Of a stretch of DNA of 64,000 bases, positions 15,114 through 26,162 are shown piece by piece. How positions within the stretch are numbered: the stretch's first letter is position 1; every line of letters begins with the position of its first letter. The notes beneath the pieces are model-generated. The model made no database searches and was not told the DNA's origin. It saw nothing but the letters and a program-made list of their open reading frames with translations. A program made the position numbers and the translations under genes. Origin of the DNA: Acinetobacter sp. ANC 4173 (GTDB lineage: Bacteria > Pseudomonadota > Gammaproteobacteria > Pseudomonadales > Moraxellaceae); contig NZ_SJOF01000008.1 in assembly GCF_004331255.1 (NCBI RefSeq), positions 62,001 to 126,000 on the forward strand. The letters are read 5' to 3'.

Positions 15114-15725
15114 TTAGTTAAGAAATTTTAATTGTTGGTACTGTTGTAGTTCATCGAGTGAGTTAATACTGTGAAAAAATAGATTTTTATTATTAAACCG
15201 TGCGACTTGAGGGTGCAGTTCAGCAAAACACTTTTTTAGACTGAACTGTTTTAGTTCGATATGCTGTTGTAGTTGCTTTAGTGCACTACGTTTTAACAAA
15301 CAGAACGGATACAGTGCGCGTCCATTCAATTCGACATAAGCCACTTCTGCCTGTGCGTTTTTTGCCAGTACGGTATGAAGTTTCTCAAGCACACGGGATG
15401 GAATGTAGGTCACATCACACGGAATAAATAGAACATAGTCCGATGAGACATGTGTCCAAGCGCTTTTCATGCCCATCAGTGGACCTAAAAATCCAGATTC
15501 CTCATCTTGATAATAGGCAATGCTCGGTACCAATGCACGGTAAAGTGAATAGTCACGATGACTATTCACCCAGATAGAATTCACTTTATGTTTTAGGGTT
15601 TGATGAATTTTTAAAAGCTGAATCTGATCATCAAAAGTTTGCAAAAGTTTATTCATCCCATTCATACGTCGCGCTTGTCCTCCTGCAAGAATGACAAGAT
15701 CAGTGGCAGGATAAGCTTTAATCAT
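15114..15725 (-). CDS. mobA: Molybdenum cofactor guanylyltransferase
   Basis: 203 residues. MobA joins GMP to Mo-molybdopterin, making the guanine dinucleotide cofactor that NasA-type nitrate reductases carry. The nucleotide-binding motif LVILAGGQARRMNGMNKLL is at residues 11-29, and FIPCDVTYIP near residue 100 holds the metal-binding aspartate. Its ATG overlaps the nasA stop by four bases (ATGA), so it is translationally coupled to its own client enzyme. It is the last gene of the narK operon. Confidence 0.9.
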   Translation of the reverse strand: MIKAYPATDLVILAGGQARRMNGMNKLLQTFDDQIQLLKIHQTLKHKVNSIWVNSHRDYSLYRALVPSIAYYQDEESGFLGPLMGMKSAWTHVSSDYVLFIPCDVTYIPSRVLEKLHTVLAKNAQAEVAYVELNGRALYPFCLLKRSALKQLQQHIELKQFSLKKCFAELHPQVARFNNKNLFFHSINSLDELQQYQQLKFLN

Positions 15726-18502
15726 TCCACATCCTCCGTTTGACAGGCTTTAATTAAGCCACGAATTTCAGGTAAGCAAGAACCACAATTACCTCCAGCT
15801 TTTAAGCAAGCGGTAACTTGCTTTTCATTGGTAATGTTTTTCTCTTTAATGGTTTCAATAATTCGATTTTTACCCACTTTGAAGCAACTACACACCAATG
15901 GCCCTTCATTATTGCGCATTGAAATCGGTTGCCCCGCCAATAGTGCTTTACGATGCATGGCACTCAATCGTTCACGTTTAAATAATCCTGCAACCCAGTC
16001 TCGATCTGGCAGTAAAGCACGTGGGGCAATATATAAACTGGCAATCAGAATGCCATCTTTTAAGACAATGCTATGACTGATTTGTGCTGAATGATCATCG
16101 ACATTTAACCATTCAAAACTTTCATCTTGAAATGGTAAAAGTTCTTTTAAATGTTTGGTAATGTCATCGTATTTACGGCGATCTGCCAGTTCATAACGTA
16201 CAGCTTTGGCAGTGGTCACTTTGGTCCACCAAACACAGGCCTCTATAGAGGTCTTGACCATAGTGGCGTACTCATTACGGGCATAAAATACGCCCTGCCA
16301 TTGAGTATAAAAAGGTTGCAGCATAACAGGTGTGTGCTTAAATTCTGGCTCACCTGAGATAGCATCCACCACAGGATTAACCACGCGACCAATGCGGGCA
16401 TCTGAAGCAACTTGATCGTTCCAATGGATTGGGGCAAAAATTTGCCCACGACGGATACCTTGAGAAATAGCAGTTTTTAAAACACAGCGCCCCCAAGTCG
16501 ATGCAACTTCGACCAAGTCCCCTTCTTTCAAGCCATATTTCAAAGCATCTTGCGCATGAATCTCACAAAATGGTTCTGCACGATGCGTACTTAAGTTGGC
16601 GGATAATCCTGTTCGACTCATGGTATGCCACTGATCACGAATACGACCTGTGTTTAAAGCCAGAGGATATTCACTGGTACAGGCATTTACAGGAGCAATA
16701 TTTTCTACAGCAATAAACTTGGCTTTACCATCAGGATGGCTAAATTGCCCATTGGCATAGAGATGTCGTACCATTTCAATGGCCTGCTGTTTATCCCATA
16801 CTGGCCACTGAATGGGGTTGAGATCATCGTATTCTTGTCCTGTTAGCCCTGTTAAACCTTGTAAATTGAAATAACGAAAAGTCTTTGATTCATCACGTTG
16901 TGCTAAGGGGACATTTTCACTGGCTGAAAGTTGTGCATGCTCGTTAAAAATTTCACTGACATTTTCAAAATTAAAACCAGAGAATCCCATTCTTTTTGCC
17001 ACTTGCGAAACTGTCCACCAGTCTGCTTGAGCAATTCCCGGTGCATCTAAAAATGCTCGTTGTCTGGAAATACGTCGCTCAGAATTGGTCACTGTGCCAT
17101 CTTTTTCTCCCCAACCTAAAGCGGGCAGTAAAACATCGGCAAATGCTGTCGTATCGGTATTTTGGCAAATATCCGAAACCACCACAAAAGAACATTTTTC
17201 TAAGGCACGTTTGACCTGATCTGCATTAGGTAAACTCACTACAGGATTGGTGGCCATAATCCAAAGTGCTTTAATTTTGCCACTTTCAACGGCTTCAAAT
17301 AAATCAACTGCTTTTAATCCAGCGGATTTAGCAATGACAGGACTTTGCCAAAAGTTTTGTACCAATTGCTGATGTTGAGGGTTATCAATATCTAAATGAG
17401 CTGCCAACATATTGGCTAATCCACCCACTTCACGGCCACCCATCGCATTCGGCTGACCTGTCATTGAAAATGGTGCCGCCCCAACTTTACCAATTTTCCC
17501 ACTATATAAATGGCAATTGGTAATGGCATTGGCTTTATTCACGCCTTGTGAAGACTGATTGACCCCCATTGAAAATAGGGTCATTACTCGTTCAGTCTGT
17601 GCAAATTTTGCATAAAACTGTTGTAATTTATCTAGTGTAATTCCTGTTTGTTGAGCGACATCTTCAATATCTTGTTCCGTTTGGCTACTGAGCAAAGCAG
17701 CTTCAATCCCTTGCGTATGTGCATCAATAAAGGATTGATCTGCACATCCATTTTGATGCAAATATTGTAGGAGTCCATTAAACAAAGCGATATCTTGCCC
17801 TGGAAGAATGGGCAAATGTAAATCGGCTTGCTCACAAGTACTGGTAAAACGCGGATCAACCACAACCACAAAAATATCGCGTTCAGCTTTGGCTTGCATA
17901 ATCCGTTGATACAATACTGGATGACACCATGCCGTATTTGATCCGACCAGAACCACCATATCTGTTTGTTCAAAATCTTGATAACTGGCAGGAACAATGT
18001 CTTCACCAAAAGCCCGTTTATGTGCTGCCACAGCAGAAGACATACATAGACGGGAATTGGTATCAATATTGGCTGTACCTAAGTAGCCTTTCACGAATTT
18101 ATTCACCACATAGTAATCTTCGGTCAGTAATTGCCCCGATACATAAAATGCGATACTTTCTGGGCCATATTGCTCTATACAGGTTTGGAATTGCTGCGCA
18201 ATTTGATCGAGTGCAGTATCCCAAGTTGTCATTTTTTGCTGTGTATTTCTTCCGAGCATGGGCTGTAATAAGCGCGTTTCTAACCCGATGGTATCCGCCA
18301 AATTGCTGCCTTTAATACACAATTTTCCATAGTTAGAAGGATGTGAAACATCCCCCTCTACACTAACAACTTGACCTTGCGCCGTATGTTTGACATGTGC
18401 GACTACACCACACCCCACGCCACAGTAAGGACAAGTGGTTTTTGTGCTCTCGGTCACTGGAGCAGTCGAACTTTGGAGTTCCACAAATGGAATACTGGTC
18501 AT
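15722..18502 (-). CDS. nasA: Assimilatory nitrate reductase catalytic subunit with C-terminal [2Fe-2S] domain
   Basis: 926 residues, cytoplasmic, no Tat signal. The N-terminal [4Fe-4S] site is C24, C27, C31 and C62. Three molybdopterin-binding domains follow, including NTDTTAFADVLLPALGWGEKDGTVTNSERRISRQ near residues 455-490 in shorter blocks, and a final dinucleotide-binding domain with LNTGRIRDQWHTMSRTG. The last 60 or so residues form a BFD-like [2Fe-2S] domain (VCSCFKVGK, later CGSCLPEI), which is typical of the NasA class and probably the electron entry. It reduces nitrate to nitrite. It follows the NirD/FAD gene by 59 bp, and mobA overlaps its end. Confidence 0.93.
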   Translation of the reverse strand: MTSIPFVELQSSTAPVTESTKTTCPYCGVGCGVVAHVKHTAQGQVVSVEGDVSHPSNYGKLCIKGSNLADTIGLETRLLQPMLGRNTQQKMTTWDTALDQIAQQFQTCIEQYGPESIAFYVSGQLLTEDYYVVNKFVKGYLGTANIDTNSRLCMSSAVAAHKRAFGEDIVPASYQDFEQTDMVVLVGSNTAWCHPVLYQRIMQAKAERDIFVVVVDPRFTSTCEQADLHLPILPGQDIALFNGLLQYLHQNGCADQSFIDAHTQGIEAALLSSQTEQDIEDVAQQTGITLDKLQQFYAKFAQTERVMTLFSMGVNQSSQGVNKANAITNCHLYSGKIGKVGAAPFSMTGQPNAMGGREVGGLANMLAAHLDIDNPQHQQLVQNFWQSPVIAKSAGLKAVDLFEAVESGKIKALWIMATNPVVSLPNADQVKRALEKCSFVVVSDICQNTDTTAFADVLLPALGWGEKDGTVTNSERRISRQRAFLDAPGIAQADWWTVSQVAKRMGFSGFNFENVSEIFNEHAQLSASENVPLAQRDESKTFRYFNLQGLTGLTGQEYDDLNPIQWPVWDKQQAIEMVRHLYANGQFSHPDGKAKFIAVENIAPVNACTSEYPLALNTGRIRDQWHTMSRTGLSANLSTHRAEPFCEIHAQDALKYGLKEGDLVEVASTWGRCVLKTAISQGIRRGQIFAPIHWNDQVASDARIGRVVNPVVDAISGEPEFKHTPVMLQPFYTQWQGVFYARNEYATMVKTSIEACVWWTKVTTAKAVRYELADRRKYDDITKHLKELLPFQDESFEWLNVDDHSAQISHSIVLKDGILIASLYIAPRALLPDRDWVAGLFKRERLSAMHRKALLAGQPISMRNNEGPLVCSCFKVGKNRIIETIKEKNITNEKQVTACLKAGGNCGSCLPEIRGLIKACQTEDVE

Positions 18503-18561: not shown

Positions 18562-20181
18562 TTAGCCTACTTTTTTTAATGCAAAATCCCGACCAAAAAG
18601 CAGCTTATTGCGAATATTGGAAATTGGGGTTTGATCTGCAATTAATTCGGCATACCAAGCGCCATCTTCTGTATCTCCAAACAAGACTGCTCCAATGACT
18701 TTGTCCTGTTGAATAATGATACGTTTATAAATTTGACGTTTTTCATCATTTAAAATGATGTCTTCAAAATCATCTTTAGGCTCAAAATTCCCTGCCGAAA
18801 ACACATCGACACCACTGACTTTTAATTGGGTCGGAACCGTTGGGGCTTTAAAGGTCAGACTACCATGTTCTGCCAAGTGACTCGCGCAAATAAAAGCTTG
18901 TCCCCATAAAGGTTCGACCAAACCAAAGGTCTGACTGCGATGTTCAATACATTCACCCACTGCATAAATACTTGGGTCAAAAGTTTGCATGGTGTCATTG
19001 ACCATGACGCCACGGTTGGTTCTGAGTCCTGCGCTTTGTGCCAAACTGATATTTGGTCGAATGCCGACTGCAAAAACCACCAAATCCGCATCTAACACAG
19101 TACCGTCTTTTAAACGCACTTGGCTGACTTGACCATCAGTACCGATTAGCTCGTCAGTATTGGCTTCGGTAATAATTTGAATCCCTTTTTGTTCAATGCT
19201 ATGGCGAAGCATTTGACTGGCACGATCATCCAGTTGACGTTCCATAATGCGATTTATTAAATGTAAAACGGTGACATTCATACCACGGCGCTTCAAACCG
19301 TAAGCCGCTTCTAAACCAAGTAACCCCCCACCAATCACCACAGCATTACGTTTGTTTTCACAATATTCCAGCATGGTATTGACATCATAAATATCACGGA
19401 AACTCACGACACCTTTTAGGTCTGCGCCTTTTACTGGTGGCACAAAAGGTTTAGACCCTGTGGCTAAAATGAGTCGGTCATAATCCACCACAATGCCTGT
19501 TTGGGTATGGACCTGTTTGCGTGGACGATCAATTTTGACGGCAGGATCATCTGCAATAAAGCGCATACCTTTGTCGCGATACCATGCATGTGGGTGTAGC
19601 ATAATATCTTCAACTGTTTTTTCACCTGATAACACTGGCGATAGCATAATGCGGTTATAGTTGCCCCATGGTTCTTCACCAATTACGGTAATTTCATAAC
19701 GATCTGGTGCCATATCCAATAAATCTTCCAGACAGCGCATACCTGCCAAACCATTTCCAATCAAAACCAACTTCATTTTTTCTGAAGAAGGTCCATTGTT
19801 GGTGATATAAGTCTTTTGTGCTGTAGGACTCACCCAAACACGACCATCTTGAATTTTGGTTGGGAACACCAGTAGTTTTTGATCTTTATCTTCTAAGCAA
19901 CGTCCAGTGGCTAAACTAAAATGCTGCTTATAAATGGGCGATGCAATGACGCGTTCACCTTGTAAGTCGCCAATAATGCCACGGCTCATGACATTGGCTT
20001 GGCTGAAAGGGTCTTTATTGCTCAGCGCATAAACACGTTTTTCTGTCCCTACGCGGAACAAAGCAATTGCTTGTCCTTCAACCAAAGCCCCTACGCCCGT
20101 ATTCGGGGTGATGTCATTTAAATCACAGACCTCAACCCAGTTTTGATCTGGAAGCATATTTTTATCATTTAAAATAGTCAT
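18562..20181 (-). CDS. NirD-like Rieske-fold domain fused to an FAD/NAD(P) oxidoreductase
   Basis: 539 residues in two parts. Residues 12-125 match the nitrite reductase small subunit NirD (WVEVCDLNDITPNTGVGALV, SRGIIGDLQGERVIASPIYK, FSLATGRCLE), a Rieske fold without iron ligands. Residues 135-539 are a flavoprotein of the NirB N-terminal/rubredoxin-reductase type, with FAD site LVLIGNGLAGMRCLED, NAD site AVVIGGGLLGLEAAYGL and VNDTMQTFDPSIYAVGE. It lies 15 bp after nirB and before nasA. The likely role is to serve NirB as small subunit and to pass electrons from NAD(P)H to NasA or NirB. The electron route is inference. Confidence 0.85.
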   Translation of the reverse strand: MTILNDKNMLPDQNWVEVCDLNDITPNTGVGALVEGQAIALFRVGTEKRVYALSNKDPFSQANVMSRGIIGDLQGERVIASPIYKQHFSLATGRCLEDKDQKLLVFPTKIQDGRVWVSPTAQKTYITNNGPSSEKMKLVLIGNGLAGMRCLEDLLDMAPDRYEITVIGEEPWGNYNRIMLSPVLSGEKTVEDIMLHPHAWYRDKGMRFIADDPAVKIDRPRKQVHTQTGIVVDYDRLILATGSKPFVPPVKGADLKGVVSFRDIYDVNTMLEYCENKRNAVVIGGGLLGLEAAYGLKRRGMNVTVLHLINRIMERQLDDRASQMLRHSIEQKGIQIITEANTDELIGTDGQVSQVRLKDGTVLDADLVVFAVGIRPNISLAQSAGLRTNRGVMVNDTMQTFDPSIYAVGECIEHRSQTFGLVEPLWGQAFICASHLAEHGSLTFKAPTVPTQLKVSGVDVFSAGNFEPKDDFEDIILNDEKRQIYKRIIIQQDKVIGAVLFGDTEDGAWYAELIADQTPISNIRNKLLFGRDFALKKVG

Positions 20182-20195
20182 TTGCGTTCTCCTTA

Positions 20196-22742
20196 TTATG
20201 CTTCAACCATTGGAATACGGTCTTCAGCGCGTTCTGCGCTGTTTAATGGGCGAATTTGTCCGCGTTCTTGGGTAAATTGAATATGCGGATCAGCTTGCTG
20301 CTCAGCATTGGCATTGATATAAGTTTGGAAGCGTTTACGAATTTCAGGGTTCTCAACTGCGGTACGCCATTCATCTTGATAAGTCCCAACAATGTGCTGC
20401 ATACGACGTTCAAGTTCTGTGGCTAAACCCAGTGAATCTTCAATAATCACGGATTTTAAATAGTCTAAGCCGCCTTCCATGTTGTCGCGCCATACGCTGG
20501 TGCGTTGTAAACGATCTGCGGTTTGAATGTAGAACATAAAGAAACGGTCGATATAACGAATCAACATTTCGGTATCTAAGTCAGATGCAATCAATTCTGC
20601 ATGGCGTGGTTTCATACCACCATTACCACAGACATAGAGGTTCCAACCTTTTTCAGTGGCAATCACGCCAACATCTTTACCTTGAGCTTCAGCACACTCA
20701 CGGGTACAACCCGAAACCGCCATTTTTAATTTATGTGGTGAGCGTAAACCTTTGTAGCGGTTTTCGAGGAAAATGGCTAAACCGACTGAATCATCTACAC
20801 CATAACGACACCATGTACTGCCAACACAAGATTTAACTGTACGTAATGATTTACCGTAAGCATGACCAGATTCAAAACCTGCGGCATTCAACTCTTCCCA
20901 AATCAACGGCAGTTGATGCACTTGCGCGCCAAACATATCAACACGTTGTCCGCCCGTAATTTTGGTGTACAGGTTGTATTTTTTTGCAATTTGACCTACA
21001 GCAATTAAGCCATCTGGTGTGACTTCACCCCCAGCCATGCGTGGTACAACCGAGTAAGAACCATCTTTTTGGATGTTTCCTAAGTAGTAGTCGTTACTGT
21101 CTTGCAAACCGGCATGACTTGGTTCAAGTACGAAATCATTCCAGCAAGACGCCAAGATGTTTGCAGCCGTTGGTTTGCAAATATCACAGCCCAAACCATG
21201 CCCATGCTGATGAATCAAGTCATCGAAGGTTTTAATTTCATTCACACGAACCAAGTGATACAGCTCTTGGCGGGAGTATGGGAAGTGTTCGCAAATATGA
21301 TTATTGACAGTGACACCTTGACGTTGTAATTCAGACTTCAATACCTGCGTAACTAAAGGAGCACAACCACCACAAGCGGTCGCAGCTTTGGTACATTTCT
21401 TTAAGGCACCCAAAGAAGTTGAGCCGTCACTAATGGCTTGACAAATATCGGCTTTCGACACGTTATTACATGAACATATCGTGGCACTGTCTGGTAGTAA
21501 ATCGACGCCACTGCCGCCTGCTTTCGCGCCCGAGTCGGCAAACCCTGGCATAATGAGACTTTCTGGAACTTCGGGTAATGCCAGACCATTCAGCATCATT
21601 TGTAGCAAGTCGCTATATTCTTTGGCATCACCTACCAATACCGCACCCAAAAGTTGGGTTTTTTCTGCATTGACTACAATTTTCTTATATACCAATGCAG
21701 CTTCATCAGCATAAAAATAGCTCAATGAATTTGGAGTCATGGCATGTGCATCACCGATGGATGCCACGTCTACACCCATCAACTTCAATTTGGTGCTCAT
21801 GTCTGCACCAGCGAAAATGTTGCATTCTTGCTGCATCACATGCTTGGCTGCAATACGTGCCATGTCATAGCCTGGTGCGACTAAACCAAAGATTTTATTG
21901 TTCCAAAGCGCACACTCACCAATGGCATAAATATCTTCATGACTGGTTTGGCAATAATCATTAATGACAATACCACCACGTTCACCAATGGCTAAACCGC
22001 TTGAGCGAGCAAGTTCATCGCGTGGGCGAATGCCCGCAGAGAATAAAACGATATCGGTTTCGAGTTCTGAGCCATCGCCAAATTTCATTACATGAACAGC
22101 GGACGCCCCATCTTCAATAGATTGAGTGGCTTTTTGGGTATGAACTTTAACCCCGAGGTTTTCAATTTTGGTGCGTAATACTTTGCCGCCTAAGTCATCA
22201 ATTTGCACAGCCATTAAGCGTGGCGCAAACTCTACCACATGTGTTTCTAAGTTTAGGTCACAGAGTGCCTTCGCTGCTTCAAGTCCTAATAAGCCACCAC
22301 CAATCACCACACCTGTTTTTGCATTTAAACTTGCAGCTTTAATGGCATCTAAGTCTTCAATGGTACGGTAAACAAAACAGTTTTGACGTTCATTCCCCGG
22401 AATTGGCGGTACAAAAGCATAAGAGCCTGTGGCTAAAACCAATTTGTCATAGCTAAGTGTTTCACCATGATTGGTGGTCACCAATTTATTTTCTGGATCA
22501 ATTGCAAGGGCTTTGGTATTTAAACGTAGGTCTATTCCATAGGCATCGGCAAAGTCTGCACGTGCAAGTGATAAATCTTTGGCAGTTTTACCAGAAAAGT
22601 ATTCGGTTAAATGCACACGGTCATACGCCAAACGTGGTTCTTCTGCCAAAATGGTAATTTCTACTTCGTCACCTGCCTGCTCAAGTACACTCTCAATGAA
22701 CTTGTGCCCGACCATACCGTGACCAATCATAAGTAGTTTCAT
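20196..22742 (-). CDS. nirB: Assimilatory nitrite reductase, large subunit
   Basis: 848 residues; reduces nitrite to ammonium with NAD(P)H. In order: FAD domain (MKLLMIGHGMVGHKFIE), NAD domain (GVVIGGGLLGLEAAKAL), a BFD-like [2Fe-2S] domain near residues 417-470 (TICSCNNVSK, ACGGCAPL), a ferredoxin-like half-domain, and the siroheme/[4Fe-4S] site with cysteines in TVKSCVGSTWCRYG and MAVSGCTRECAEAQGKD. The length matches E. coli NirB (847). It follows narK by 24 bp. The NirD function is supplied by the fused protein downstream. Confidence 0.95.
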   Translation of the reverse strand: MKLLMIGHGMVGHKFIESVLEQAGDEVEITILAEEPRLAYDRVHLTEYFSGKTAKDLSLARADFADAYGIDLRLNTKALAIDPENKLVTTNHGETLSYDKLVLATGSYAFVPPIPGNERQNCFVYRTIEDLDAIKAASLNAKTGVVIGGGLLGLEAAKALCDLNLETHVVEFAPRLMAVQIDDLGGKVLRTKIENLGVKVHTQKATQSIEDGASAVHVMKFGDGSELETDIVLFSAGIRPRDELARSSGLAIGERGGIVINDYCQTSHEDIYAIGECALWNNKIFGLVAPGYDMARIAAKHVMQQECNIFAGADMSTKLKLMGVDVASIGDAHAMTPNSLSYFYADEAALVYKKIVVNAEKTQLLGAVLVGDAKEYSDLLQMMLNGLALPEVPESLIMPGFADSGAKAGGSGVDLLPDSATICSCNNVSKADICQAISDGSTSLGALKKCTKAATACGGCAPLVTQVLKSELQRQGVTVNNHICEHFPYSRQELYHLVRVNEIKTFDDLIHQHGHGLGCDICKPTAANILASCWNDFVLEPSHAGLQDSNDYYLGNIQKDGSYSVVPRMAGGEVTPDGLIAVGQIAKKYNLYTKITGGQRVDMFGAQVHQLPLIWEELNAAGFESGHAYGKSLRTVKSCVGSTWCRYGVDDSVGLAIFLENRYKGLRSPHKLKMAVSGCTRECAEAQGKDVGVIATEKGWNLYVCGNGGMKPRHAELIASDLDTEMLIRYIDRFFMFYIQTADRLQRTSVWRDNMEGGLDYLKSVIIEDSLGLATELERRMQHIVGTYQDEWRTAVENPEIRKRFQTYINANAEQQADPHIQFTQERGQIRPLNSAERAEDRIPMVEA

Positions 22743-22766: not shown

Positions 22767-24107
22767 TTATGCCATGTTGTTACGATCAAGCACGGCTTGC
22801 TCGAATAAACGTTGTTCTTTCTCTTTGTGTTCGACTGAAAAGCGAATCATGAGCACAAAACTTGCTGCAATGACTACCAGTCCACCTAGAACCATCAGGC
22901 ATGTTTGAATATCTAAGACACCTTTGAGTAGAAAACCTGCTGCAACCGCACCAACGTTGCCACCCGCGCCGATAATGCCTGCAACCCCACCTAAGGCATC
23001 ACGATCAATAAATGGCACCAAGGCATAGGTTGCGCCGCAAGCCATGTGAGTAAACAAAGCAAATACTGTCATGGTTAAAATGGCCAACATCGCAGTGTTC
23101 ATTTGTGAGAATACAATCAGGAACAGACCTTCCATCAGGATCATGCCGAACAAGACTTTAGTACGCCCATCCAGCCCTTTTTTGGTTGCAACCTTGTCCG
23201 AAATAATGCCGCCTAAAGCACGGGCAAACAGTGCCAAAAGTCCGAAAATACCCGCAGCCAAACCTGCTTCTTTTAGTCCAAAGCCAAAGTTTTCCACGTA
23301 GTACATTGCGACAATGTTATGAATGAAAATTTCGATACCAAAGCATGCCGCATAAGAGCCAAATAGAATCCAGACGCGATAGTTGCGGGCTGCATGCATT
23401 AAGATGTTTAAGCCACCTTTTTTCTCACTGCCAACTTGAATGCCTTGAGCGCGTAATTCCTTAAAGTTGCCTTGCGGACAATCTTGTGTGTATTTCCAGT
23501 ACAGCCCGCCCACAATCAGCATCATGACGCCAGGAACAAGTAGGGCAATACGCCAGCCCATAGCTTGTTCAACACCGAACATCACTAAAGCTGAAAGTAA
23601 AAGTGGCATTAAGGCTTGAGTGGCACCGCCCCCCGCATTTCCCCAACCCGCAGTAGTGGCATTTGCAGTCCCGACAACATTCGGGGCAAACATGATGCTG
23701 GTATGGTATTGCGTGATGACGAAACTTGCGCCAATTGCACCGATAAGCAGCCTAAAGAACAGAAAAGATTCGTAACTGTTGGCTGATGCAACACCAAAGA
23801 CAGGAATGCTGCCAAGAATAAGTAACGCAGTATAAGTTTTGCGTGGACCGTATTTGTCACAGAGTGGACCAACAATCAAGCGAACCAAAATCGTAATCGC
23901 AACGGCTGCAATATTAATATTCGCAATTTGATCTTTAGTCAGATGGAATTCGCCTGCAATGACAGGCATGAGTGGTGCACAGGCAAACCATGCAAAAAAG
24001 CAGACAAAAAAGGCGAGCCAACTCATGTGGAAGGCCCGCATCGCTGAAGTCTTAAAATTAAAAAGACTTATTGTTGTGGCTTTTTTCTCATATAAATTTG
24101 AAGACAT
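22767..24107 (-). CDS. narK: Nitrate/nitrite transporter, MFS NNP family
   Basis: 446 residues with 12 predicted membrane segments. Nitrate-signature glycine runs are visible: GWGNAGGGATQALMPLL near residue 160 and GIIGAGGNVGAVAAGF near 375, each in a helix lining the path. LCDKYGPRKTYT after helix 2 is the MFS loop motif. It imports nitrate (possibly with nitrite exchange) for the reductases downstream. GGAAGGAGAGG lies just before the ATG. It is the first gene of the operon, behind a sigma-54-like promoter and two leader hairpins. NarK and NasA-transporter names are used interchangeably for this type. Confidence 0.92.
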   Translation of the reverse strand: MSSNLYEKKATTISLFNFKTSAMRAFHMSWLAFFVCFFAWFACAPLMPVIAGEFHLTKDQIANINIAAVAITILVRLIVGPLCDKYGPRKTYTALLILGSIPVFGVASANSYESFLFFRLLIGAIGASFVITQYHTSIMFAPNVVGTANATTAGWGNAGGGATQALMPLLLSALVMFGVEQAMGWRIALLVPGVMMLIVGGLYWKYTQDCPQGNFKELRAQGIQVGSEKKGGLNILMHAARNYRVWILFGSYAACFGIEIFIHNIVAMYYVENFGFGLKEAGLAAGIFGLLALFARALGGIISDKVATKKGLDGRTKVLFGMILMEGLFLIVFSQMNTAMLAILTMTVFALFTHMACGATYALVPFIDRDALGGVAGIIGAGGNVGAVAAGFLLKGVLDIQTCLMVLGGLVVIAASFVLMIRFSVEHKEKEQRLFEQAVLDRNNMA

Positions 24108-24181
24108 AACCCTCTCCTTCCTGAACTGAACGTATATAAATTCCCACTCGGCAGGTTTCTCTGCTTTACAGGTCGATCAGA

Positions 24182-24199
24182 ACGGACATCGTTGGCCGT
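24182..24199 (-). ncRNA. ANTAR-target hairpin P2 in narK leader
   Basis: In the minus-strand RNA: ACGGCC-AACGAT-GTCCGU. A six-base stem (one C-U mismatch) closes a hexaloop with A at loop position 1 and G at position 4, the conserved pair recognised by ANTAR domains. It is 16 bases after P1 and 75 bases before the narK ATG. Confidence 0.65.
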
Positions 24200-24215
24200 C
24201 TTACAAATTTTTTAA

Positions 24216-24231
24216 GAGTCGTCTTTGACTC
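24216..24231 (-). ncRNA. ANTAR-target hairpin P1 in narK leader
   Basis: In the minus-strand RNA: GAGUC-AAAGAC-GACUC. A perfect five-base stem carries a hexaloop, again with A1 and G4. It begins within a few bases of the predicted sigma-54 transcription start near 24233, as in known nas leaders. Confidence 0.7.
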
Positions 24232-24242
24232 ATAAGGAATAA

Positions 24243-24259
24243 TGCAATTGCTATGCCAA
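24243..24259 (-). promoter_or_regulatory. Candidate sigma-54 promoter of the narK-nirB-nasA-mobA operon
   Basis: Minus strand TTGGCATAGCAATTGCA: TTGGCA and TTGCA boxes with GG and GC 12 bases apart, a near-consensus -24/-12 pair. Predicted start is near 24233, immediately before hairpin P1. The 474-base gap 24108-24581 thus holds the leader RNA, two promoters and an NtrC-like site. Confidence 0.7.
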
Positions 24260-24496: not shown

Positions 24497-24513
24497 TCGG
24501 CATGTTTATTGCT
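24497..24513 (+). promoter_or_regulatory. Candidate sigma-54 promoter of nasT-nasS
   Basis: TCGGCATGTTTATTGCT: GG and GC are 12 bases apart, with TTGCT a perfect -12 box and the -24 box departing at two positions. Predicted start is near 24525, about 57 bases before the nasT ATG. Confidence 0.5.
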
Positions 24514-24581: not shown

Positions 24582-25169
24582 ATGCCAAAGCTTAAAATTG
24601 CCTTGATCGATGATGATCAAGATCGTGCCAACTATATAAAAGATTCACTGCTTCAGCACGATTTTGACGTGGTTGCCTGCTTAACCATCGATCATTTAAA
24701 TATGTTCAAATTAGAGCATTTACAGGCCGATGTCATTTTGCTGGATATGGATCATCCACATCGTGACATTATTGAAAGTTGTGTGAGTCAGTTTGATTTA
24801 CCGACTGTGCTATTTACCCAAAATAGCCAAAAAGACATGATTAAGAGTGCCATTGATGCTGGAATTACAGCTTATATTGTCGATGGTATTGATCCTGCAA
24901 AATTGGACAGTATTTTAGAAATCTCTATTGAACAGTTCAAAAAACATAAGAAATTACTAGCAGATTTGAAAGAGACCAAAAGTAAACTCGCCGATCGGAA
25001 AGATGTCGAAAAAGCCAAAGTTCTTTTGATGCAACTGCATCAACTCACTGAAGATCAAGCATTTCAGTTACTCCGTAAAAATGCCATGAGCCATCGAATT
25101 ACCATGGGAGAAATGGCGCGTCGCCTACTCGATGCGCAAGAATTACTACAAACCAAGTTGAAGGATTAA
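24582..25169 (+). CDS. nasT: ANTAR-domain antiterminator of nitrate assimilation
   Basis: 195 residues: a receiver-like domain (residues 1-120, with IALIDDDQDRAN and VILLDMDHP, D55 at the phosphorylation position) and a C-terminal ANTAR RNA-binding domain (about 130-192: DRKDVEKAKVLLMQLHQLTE, AFQLLRKNAMS, MARRLL). NasT binds paired hexaloop hairpins in the nas leader RNA and lets polymerase read through. In nitrate-free cells it is held by NasS. It precedes nasS by three bases and diverges from the narK operon, whose leader carries matching hairpins. Confidence 0.9.
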   Translation: MPKLKIALIDDDQDRANYIKDSLLQHDFDVVACLTIDHLNMFKLEHLQADVILLDMDHPHRDIIESCVSQFDLPTVLFTQNSQKDMIKSAIDAGITAYIVDGIDPAKLDSILEISIEQFKKHKKLLADLKETKSKLADRKDVEKAKVLLMQLHQLTEDQAFQLLRKNAMSHRITMGEMARRLLDAQELLQTKLKD

Positions 25170-25172
25170 ACT

Positions 25173-26162
25173 ATGTCTACATTAGAAAAAACACATATTC
25201 AACTTGGCTATATTCCATTACTCGATTGTATTTCTATACTTTGGGCAAAACATCGTGGTTATTTTGATGAACTTGGATTAAATGTCACACTGGTTAAAGA
25301 AGCTTCTTGGGCCAGTTTGCGAGATCGTTTGGCTTTTGGATTATTAGATGCGGCACACTGTTTATCCGGTATTTTACCCGCAGCCTCAATCGGTACAGAT
25401 CATATTGGCATTCCATTTCAAACCCCTTTGGTTTTAAGTGTAAATCGCGCTTATATCAGTTTAAGTCAAAAATTATGTTTTGATCTGGGCATTACCCATA
25501 ATGACACCGCAAAGGAAGTCGCGGCTAAAGTTGTGACCGCGATTCAACACGGACAAAATATTCAATTGGCACATGTATTTGCCAATTCCATTCATCATTT
25601 TTGTATTCGTGAATGGCTCGCACTGGCAGATGCAGAATTAGCCCAAAACATTAAACTGAGAATTTTACCGCCACCTTATATGGTAGAAGCCTTAAATAAT
25701 CAGGTGATTGATGGCTTCTGTGTCGGGGAGCCTTGGAATACTCAAGGTGAAGTTTTAGGATTGAGTCAAATTGTGGCTTCTAGTCAAGATGTCATTCCTG
25801 AAATTGCCGATAAAGTGTTAGCTGTGACCAAAGAATGGGCTACAGCACATCCGAATACTTTACAAGCAATCACTCAAGCCATTCAAAAAGCCCAGCATGA
25901 AATCAAAACCATGCAGGATTTTAGCCAAATTTGGGCATTATTAACTGAATATGAGATTCTGCAATTCGAATGTTCAGATCGCATCCATGTTCAAGAATTT
26001 TATAAAATTCAAAATATTATTAGAAATTTCATAGAAGATACAGCCACCCCTAAAGTTGAAGATTTTGAATGGCTGATTCAGCAAATGGCAAAATGGAGCA
26101 ATGTTCAAGTGAATCATGCTGAGCTTAAAAACTTAAGTCAGCAATGTATCATTCAACTTTAG
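25173..26162 (+). CDS. nasS: Nitrate sensor, NrtA/NasS-like
   Basis: 329 residues, similar to the nitrate/bicarbonate-binding proteins NrtA and CmpA (LGYIPLLDCISILWAKHRG, LNVTLVKEASWASLRDRLAFG, PPPYMVEALNNQVIDGFCVG EPWNTQG in shorter blocks). It lacks any signal peptide, so it is cytoplasmic, and no permease or ATPase gene is attached. That fits NasS, which binds nitrate and then frees NasT, rather than a transporter subunit. AAGGA lies seven bases before the ATG. The gene converges with a thioesterase-like gene 15 bp further on. Confidence 0.88.
   Translation: MSTLEKTHIQLGYIPLLDCISILWAKHRGYFDELGLNVTLVKEASWASLRDRLAFGLLDAAHCLSGILPAASIGTDHIGIPFQTPLVLSVNRAYISLSQKLCFDLGITHNDTAKEVAAKVVTAIQHGQNIQLAHVFANSIHHFCIREWLALADAELAQNIKLRILPPPYMVEALNNQVIDGFCVGEPWNTQGEVLGLSQIVASSQDVIPEIADKVLAVTKEWATAHPNTLQAITQAIQKAQHEIKTMQDFSQIWALLTEYEILQFECSDRIHVQEFYKIQNIIRNFIEDTATPKVEDFEWLIQQMAKWSNVQVNHAELKNLSQQCIIQL

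Follow-up and report, generated by a model that had tools for sequence, protein, structure and literature searches.

In the usual ANTAR mechanism, as set out by Ramesh et al. (PMC3369931), a terminator competes with P2, the second hairpin of the target RNA. The NasS-NasT pair of Paracoccus is described as separating on nitrate or nitrite, and NasT as binding the nasA leader (PMC3795266). In actinobacteria, ANTAR RNAs are reported to overlap the ribosome-binding site (RBS) often, and in mycobacteria they repress translation (PMC8164766). Translational control was also suggested by Ramesh et al. for matches near an RBS; the main text of that paper mentions neither Acinetobacter nor NasT (PMC3369931). 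According to a review, A. baumannii needs its ANTAR response regulator AvnR to use amino acids as nitrogen sources (PMC10269061). Among the literature matches listed, drawn mostly from outside the subscription literature, there was no published report of an ANTAR leader acting on a start codon in Acinetobacter.

Here we describe the leader of narK in a 64,000-nucleotide stretch of Acinetobacter sp. ANC 4173 DNA (hereafter the window) and compare it with other Acinetobacter leaders and with leaders of other bacteria. An earlier note on this DNA had drawn a full circuit, with nitrogen control of initiation and nitrate control of elongation via NasS-NasT. The reading that we favour, with a probability of about 0.58, is that NasT holds P2 and frees the narK start codon, and that translation then silences a terminator inside the gene.

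Results

A sigma-54 promoter followed by paired ANTAR-target hairpins

The window's narK (22767-24107, minus strand) encodes a nitrate/nitrite MFS transporter of 446 aa (PF07690 above the cut-off; TIGR00886 at 302 bits, slightly below its cut-off of 311.7). It is followed on the same strand by nirB for the nitrite reductase large subunit (20196-22742; TIGR02374 and NF011565 above cut-off), a gene fusing a NirD-like Rieske domain to an NAD(P)H reductase domain (18562-20181; PF13806, PF07992, and TIGR02378 above cut-off) and a gene for a probable assimilatory nitrate reductase (15722-18502; molybdopterin domains, with NCBIfam matches including NasC all below cut-off). Divergent from narK are nasT (24582-25169, plus strand), with a receiver domain (PF00072, 31.5 bits) and an ANTAR domain (PF03861, 61.8 bits), and nasS (25173-26162, plus strand), encoding a nitrate-sensor-like NMT1_2 protein (PF13379, 179.9 bits). 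The start of nasT at 24582 is 350 bp from the predicted transcription start of narK, the distance given in the earlier note. Searching the genome, we found one ANTAR protein, NasT, one RpoN (PF04552, 226.8 bits) and an NtrC equivalog (NF008176, 757.6 bits). As the search turned up no ANTAR protein besides NasT, NasT-NasS is likely the regulator of the narK leader, as had been proposed.

On the minus strand, TTGGCATAGCAATTGCA occupies 24259-24243, with GG at 24257/24256 and GC at 24245/24244, 12 apart; the sequence and position claimed for a sigma-54 promoter were thus correct. The -24/-12 element TGGCATAGCAATTGCA (24243-24258, minus strand) is the sole exact match to TGGCAYRNNNNTTGCW within the window against 0.21 expected, which is weak by itself. 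What takes the promoter beyond chance is the comparison of leaders, since TGGCA-N6/7-TGC stands upstream of P1, the first hairpin, in 83 of 85 Acinetobacter leaders and the remaining two (L073, L109) have TGGTA. The GG-N10-GC consensus, together with RpoN and the enhancer-binding activator NtrC in the same genome, supports the proposed sigma-54 promoter. Counting from the -12 GC, the narK transcript is predicted to start at about 24232 (+/-1, minus strand), one base upstream of P1; the earlier note had put the start near 24233.

A sigma-54-like promoter, CGGCATGTTTATTGCT (24498-24513, plus strand), was also found 84 bp upstream of nasT. A -24/-12 match beginning 53-83 bp before the gene is conserved in 50 of the 54 named NasT loci that we collected, all of them from Acinetobacter; therefore, regulator and target would both be nitrogen-controlled. 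In another genus of the same family (L159-L161), a sigma-54-like site lies about 230 bp upstream of nasT, and a hairpin bearing a T-run comes after it; there, nasT itself may be under a different attenuator.

Downstream of the narK promoter and upstream of the gene lie the paired ANTAR-target hairpins: P1 (24216-24231, minus strand), GAGUC-AAAGAC-GACUC with the loop AAAGAC; a linker of 16 bases (24200-24215); and P2 (24182-24199), ACGGCC-AACGAU-GUCCGU with the loop AACGAU. The tandem stem-loops both have A1 and G4 in a six-base loop, the features of the dual hexaloop motif. The earlier note had placed all of these correctly but left a C.U mismatch in the P2 stem unmentioned.

We compared this leader with those of other Acinetobacter loci. 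A strict P2 pattern was present in 149 of 169 loci and a looser one gave 151; removal of loci more than 96% identical left 85, which with the window made a set of 86 leaders, 85 of them distinct, as one row duplicates another. Loop G4 is present in both hairpins in 86/86 leaders; loop A1 is present in 86/86 for P2 and 80/86 for P1, the other six P1 loops having G. Three of the five P1 pairs have changed on both sides, while in P2 four of five pairs are invariant across the 85 distinct leaders, and the mismatch is C.U in 78 of the 86, U.C in 7 and C.C in 1. For P1 and P2 together, 94.1% of pair cells are kept in the 85 distinct leaders, compared with 21-49% when the partner was slid.

The 20-base P2 pattern CGGYCAANGNNGYCCGNTCT was found in 99 of 119 Acinetobacter genomes, in one or two copies each, and the reversed control pattern in 0/119. 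NasT matches were obtained in 105 of these genomes, but five of them (G032, G033, G050, G064, G107) are weak and stop before the ANTAR end, so that full-length NasT was counted in 100. The pattern is present in 99 of the 100 genomes with full-length NasT, being absent from G097, and in none of the 19 without it. An Rfam search, which the earlier note had suggested as a check, gave no match in the window that reached a gathering threshold; a sub-threshold match to RF03032 ('narK RNA') covers the leader (17.0 bits against a gathering cut-off of 43.2, E 5.1).

No terminator on the 3' arm of P2

The earlier note had reported no strong intrinsic terminator after P2, and our scans bear this out. In a strict scan for terminators built on the 3' arm of P2 (six perfect pairs, four of them G-C, and a run of 4 T), 0/86 Acinetobacter leaders were positive, and 1/86 with shuffled downstream sequence. 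The same scan was positive in 11/11 comparison leaders from other bacteria, namely L163-L169 from other genera of the family and four of RF03032 type (L170, L171, L173, L182), for which P2 was placed by hand. Seen by eye, L163-L169, seven of the 11 loci fetched (L159-L169), have a sigma-54 site, the hairpins and a U-run stem reusing the P2 3' arm; in L159-L162 no leader of the sigma-54/hairpin/terminator kind was visible. The weak GCAG/CTGC stem that had been pointed out at 24164-24151 does exist, but as part of a longer, variable hairpin.

These results bear on classical antitermination, in which NasT-bound P2 would block a leader terminator as in the Klebsiella, Pseudomonas and Enterococcus systems, the Acinetobacter terminator being weak or having been missed. 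This is the established mechanism for ANTAR proteins (PMC3369931), and it occurs in other genera of the same family. The window contains a weak terminator-like element at 24155-24143, and with a loose scan (five pairs, one mismatch, run of 3 T) a stem on the P2 3' arm was detected in 28/86 Acinetobacter leaders, the window also being positive in a similar scan. However, 28/86 is chance level, as 34/86 were positive with shuffled downstream sequence, and the strict count of none against all of the comparison leaders leads us to regard this mechanism as distinctly unlikely. By the window scan, by alignments inspected by eye and by the scripted scan of 86 leaders, the candidates on the P2 3' arm were weak stems at chance level, so nitrate control of elongation in its usual form is not supported. 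As P2 has the region around the start codon for its alternative partner, the first step controlled is more likely translation initiation, coupled perhaps to a terminator inside narK.

Predicted pairing of the linker and P2 with the narK start codon

The AUG of narK lies at 24107, preceded by the Shine-Dalgarno (SD) sequence AAGGAG (24114-24119, minus strand). In minimum-energy folds of the leader, 24208-24194 pairs with 24111-24096. The 5' strand of this predicted helix, which we call the OFF helix, consists of the final nine bases of the linker and the P2 5' arm (24194-24208, minus strand), and the 3' strand takes in bases upstream of the AUG, the start codon itself and codons 2-4 (24096-24111, minus strand). 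The OFF helix closes over a lower stem, P3 (24126-24180, minus strand), formed by CUGAUCG (24180-24174) with CGUUCAG (24132-24126) around a variable hairpin and kept in 93.9% of pair cells. In 80 of 86 leaders, the G of the AUG is paired to the linker or P2 arm at P>0.5. Five of the six exceptions (L120, L141, L142, L143, L157) pair the P2 arm just upstream of the AUG, and L145 does neither.

The mean folding energy of the 86 leaders is -37.8 kcal/mol when they fold freely and -30.1 kcal/mol with P2 forced. Forcing P2 raises the mean openness of the AUG modestly, from 0.46 to 0.61 (higher in 65/86 leaders), and lowers that of the SD sequence from 0.45 to 0.38 (higher in 26/86). Opening the ribosome site (-14..+12) costs 13.8 kcal/mol in the free leader and 7.6 with P2, which is 6.2 less and lower in 86/86, but this cost is not independent evidence because for the most part it repeats the energy difference between the free and the P2-forced state.

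When the linkers were shuffled, the share of leaders with the AUG's G at P>0.5 dropped to 43%, and the first nine coding bases were paired at 0.32 on average instead of 0.70; in 42/86 leaders the real linker outdid all 20 shuffles. Duplexes between the linker plus P2 arm and the cognate start region were better than non-cognate ones in 10 divergent leaders, only 7 of 20,000 permutations being as good; the same comparison lacking the P2 arm was weak (637/50,000 for 14 leaders, 2,105/50,000 for 5 leaders). In L104, both the start region (AUGGUCAGUUGUU) and the linker/P2 arm (ACAACGGCC) retain complementarity, and in L107 a longer A+U helix replaces the usual OFF helix.

In the alignment, 87.2% of the cells of the OFF helix and P3 are paired, against 28-40% with slid partners. 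The covariation score of 0.116 was reached by 0/500 shuffles, which related sequences may exceed even where there is no structure, and slid partners scored 0.029-0.064. Two-sided changes (9 pairs, 24 cells) were hardly above those of the slid control (5-9 pairs, 16-22 cells), and RNAalifold on the 86 leaders predicted P1 and P2 only, leaving the OFF helix out of the consensus. The P2-terminator control favours the start-codon reading, whereas the slid control weakens it; the RNAalifold consensus and the lower SD openness with P2 formed likewise count against the OFF helix. The OFF helix and the switch are predicted from folding and comparison.

Three other candidates were put aside. Pairing of the P2 3' flank with the SD sequence (GUCCGUUCUGA with UCAGGAAGGA) is possible by eye, but the predicted folds favour P3. 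An AAGUCUU/AAGACUU hairpin early in the window's narK was dropped as not conserved by eye. The stability of the window leader as a whole is ordinary (z -1.51; 18/200 shuffles as good) and was set aside as evidence.

A start-codon switch might also work in the opposite sense, with NasT binding repressing translation as in mycobacteria, where ANTAR RNAs that overlap the RBS do so (PMC8164766). In the window, the overlap of the dual hairpin with the RBS or start codon that marks the actinobacterial type was not found, P2 ending 74 bases before the AUG, and NasT is described as a positive regulator in Paracoccus (PMC3795266). We consider repression by NasT highly improbable.

A terminator-like hairpin inside narK

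Within the coding sequence of narK we found a terminator-like hairpin (24006-24039, minus strand), formed by GCGGGCC (24039-24033) and GGCTCGC (24019-24013) and followed by a six-T run (24011-24006). We compared it with synonymous shuffles in 24 representatives, which were hand-chosen and related and hence not independent; with the shuffles drawn on the window's codon usage, the hairpin was significant at p<=0.01 in 9/24 and at p<0.05 in 11/24, and not in the other 13. At L071, a locus of Acinetobacter baylyi, the species of the laboratory strain ADP1, the leader and a narK start are present together with an internal hairpin, GCGAGCC/GGCTCGC, and seven T.

In 34 of the 151 loci, duplicates included, the open reading frame (ORF) behind the leader is no longer than 110 codons. 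In the A. calcoaceticus-baumannii complex (e.g., L057, L066, L081), it has 89 codons and narK-like ends and lies directly before nirB. The 12 distinct narK remnants of this complex keep the internal stem, lengthened to ten pairs, and a seven-T run. Their pairwise divergence is 0.009 in codons 1-6, 0.055 in codons 7-21, 0.023 in the terminator codons 22-34, 0.124 in codons 35-60 and 0.081 in codons 61-90, and over the 66 pairs we counted 904 nonsynonymous and 250 synonymous codon differences. By these counts the remnant peptide seems free of constraint, whereas the start region and the internal terminator, where divergence is lowest, are kept. A separate remnant, L029, retains a seven-pair internal stem and six T. 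A clear internal terminator was seen neither in L073 nor in the L104 group, some members of which have a weak A+T-rich stem, and no likeness to narK was visible in the L104 ORF.

These remnants weigh on a purely translational switch, in which NasT frees the narK start, the downstream genes respond through ordinary Rho-dependent polarity and the internal hairpin arises incidentally from the codons for RAFHMSWLAFF. The evidence for the start-codon helix would serve it equally, and the failure of the internal hairpin in the shuffle comparison in 13 of 24 representatives speaks for it. However, the 12 remnants, with a seemingly unconstrained protein, keep the stem at ten pairs together with its seven-T run, and L029 keeps its own stem and six T. 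We regard this alternative as rather unlikely. A ribosome-guarded internal terminator, as in the reading that we favour, would account for a dead narK start being retained before nirB.

Mapped onto a tree of NasT with 81 rows, the label for a short ORF requires five changes, all forced by well-supported branches. From these sequence comparisons, narK appears to have been lost behind the leader at least four times (the complex, L029, L073, L104/L105) if the narK of L064 and L094 was regained, and otherwise more. L064 and L094, which fall within the complex, have a similar leader followed by a longer open narK, that of L064 being 78% identical to the window's; this suggests a regain or several losses. 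In six of the genomes concerned (G008, G043, G047, G054, G065, G100), a further leader stands before a narK at another place, so that the gene is gone from the nas locus but not from the genome.

Extra copies of the leader

The genome of the window contains a second leader (L192:1440-1584) before another narK. It has an exact P2, a different P1 sequence and a sigma-54 site of its own, and its AUG is paired at 0.94-0.99. Together with 20 further leaders lying away from the nasT loci already read, picked among the genome-wide P2 pattern matches and coming from 19 genomes (G006 twice), this makes 21 extra leaders, 20 of which precede a narK start. The AUG pairing holds in 13 of these 20; L215 was excluded because its downstream gene is not narK. 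At L215 (G042:C16, near 70978, reverse strand), a P2 element and a sigma-54-like site stand before a gene that perhaps starts with GTG.

Discussion

In the reading that we favour, the nitrogen-controlled sigma-54 promoter would produce an RNA beginning with P1 and P2, which would fold first because they are transcribed first. Nitrate would free NasT from NasS, and NasT would bind P1 and P2 on the nascent RNA and hold P2. When NasT is not bound, P2 would melt and its 5' arm and the linker would pair with the AUG and codons 2-4, leaving narK untranslated. In the untranslated mRNA, the internal hairpin within the first 35 narK codons would form and the downstream nirB and nitrate reductase genes would be off, whereas a translating ribosome would keep the hairpin from forming and the operon would be read.

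A broader proposal, which we hold only tentatively, is that in Acinetobacter an ANTAR protein permits translation to start and that the ribosome so admitted acts as the antiterminator at a terminator within the coding sequence. Dependence of the operon on this arrangement would have preserved the leader with the opening codons, now a leader ORF ahead of nirB, once narK had been lost from that place, several times independently. If so, the expression platform of an ANTAR target RNA can be exchanged, a terminator for a start codon, between genera of one family, and promoter, hairpins and regulator stay while the platform changes, as in riboswitches. The narK remnants would then be a natural experiment in which a coding gene has turned into a leader ORF.

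Like the NasT/NasR-type antitermination leaders (Klebsiella nasF, Pseudomonas nirB, Paracoccus nasA), the Acinetobacter leader combines dual A1/G4 hexaloop hairpins and an ANTAR regulator with nitrate assimilation, and like the antitermination leaders of other genera of the family (seven loci), it has a sigma-54 site directly upstream of P1. It differs from the NasT/NasR-type leaders in having no P2-overlapping terminator and in the alternative partner of P2, which is predicted to be the start-codon region. In translation-coupled attenuators, such as the E. coli ampC leader, an intrinsic terminator is kept from forming by a ribosome on the mRNA; the favoured reading shares this step, but in Acinetobacter it would be an ANTAR protein that gates ribosome entry. 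The ANTAR RNAs of mycobacteria and other actinobacteria are alike in that translation initiation is controlled rather than termination; in those RNAs the dual hairpin is reported to overlap the RBS and binding to repress (PMC8164766), whereas in Acinetobacter binding should activate at a distance.

The Rfam family RF03032 has the same parts as the Acinetobacter leader. Its consensus contains a -24/-12-like element at positions 1-15 (GGCaCAgcucUUGCU), a hairpin with the annotated loop AACGGC and an CAAAGACG element, and its 3' end, which the model leaves unpaired, can form a second hairpin, ACGAC-AAAGAC-GUCG. Matches were obtained in 12 of 274 genomes of the class at E<=0.001, two of them above the cut-off. 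At L170:1501-1567 and L171:1501-1571, what matches RF03032 looks like an ANTAR target joined to a sigma-54 promoter. The comparison suggests that RF03032 is such a joined element, its first 15 positions being probably promoter DNA. Unlike in RF03032, the loop types in Acinetobacter come in reverse order, with AAAGAC first, and the four RF03032-like leaders checked have their terminator on the second hairpin.
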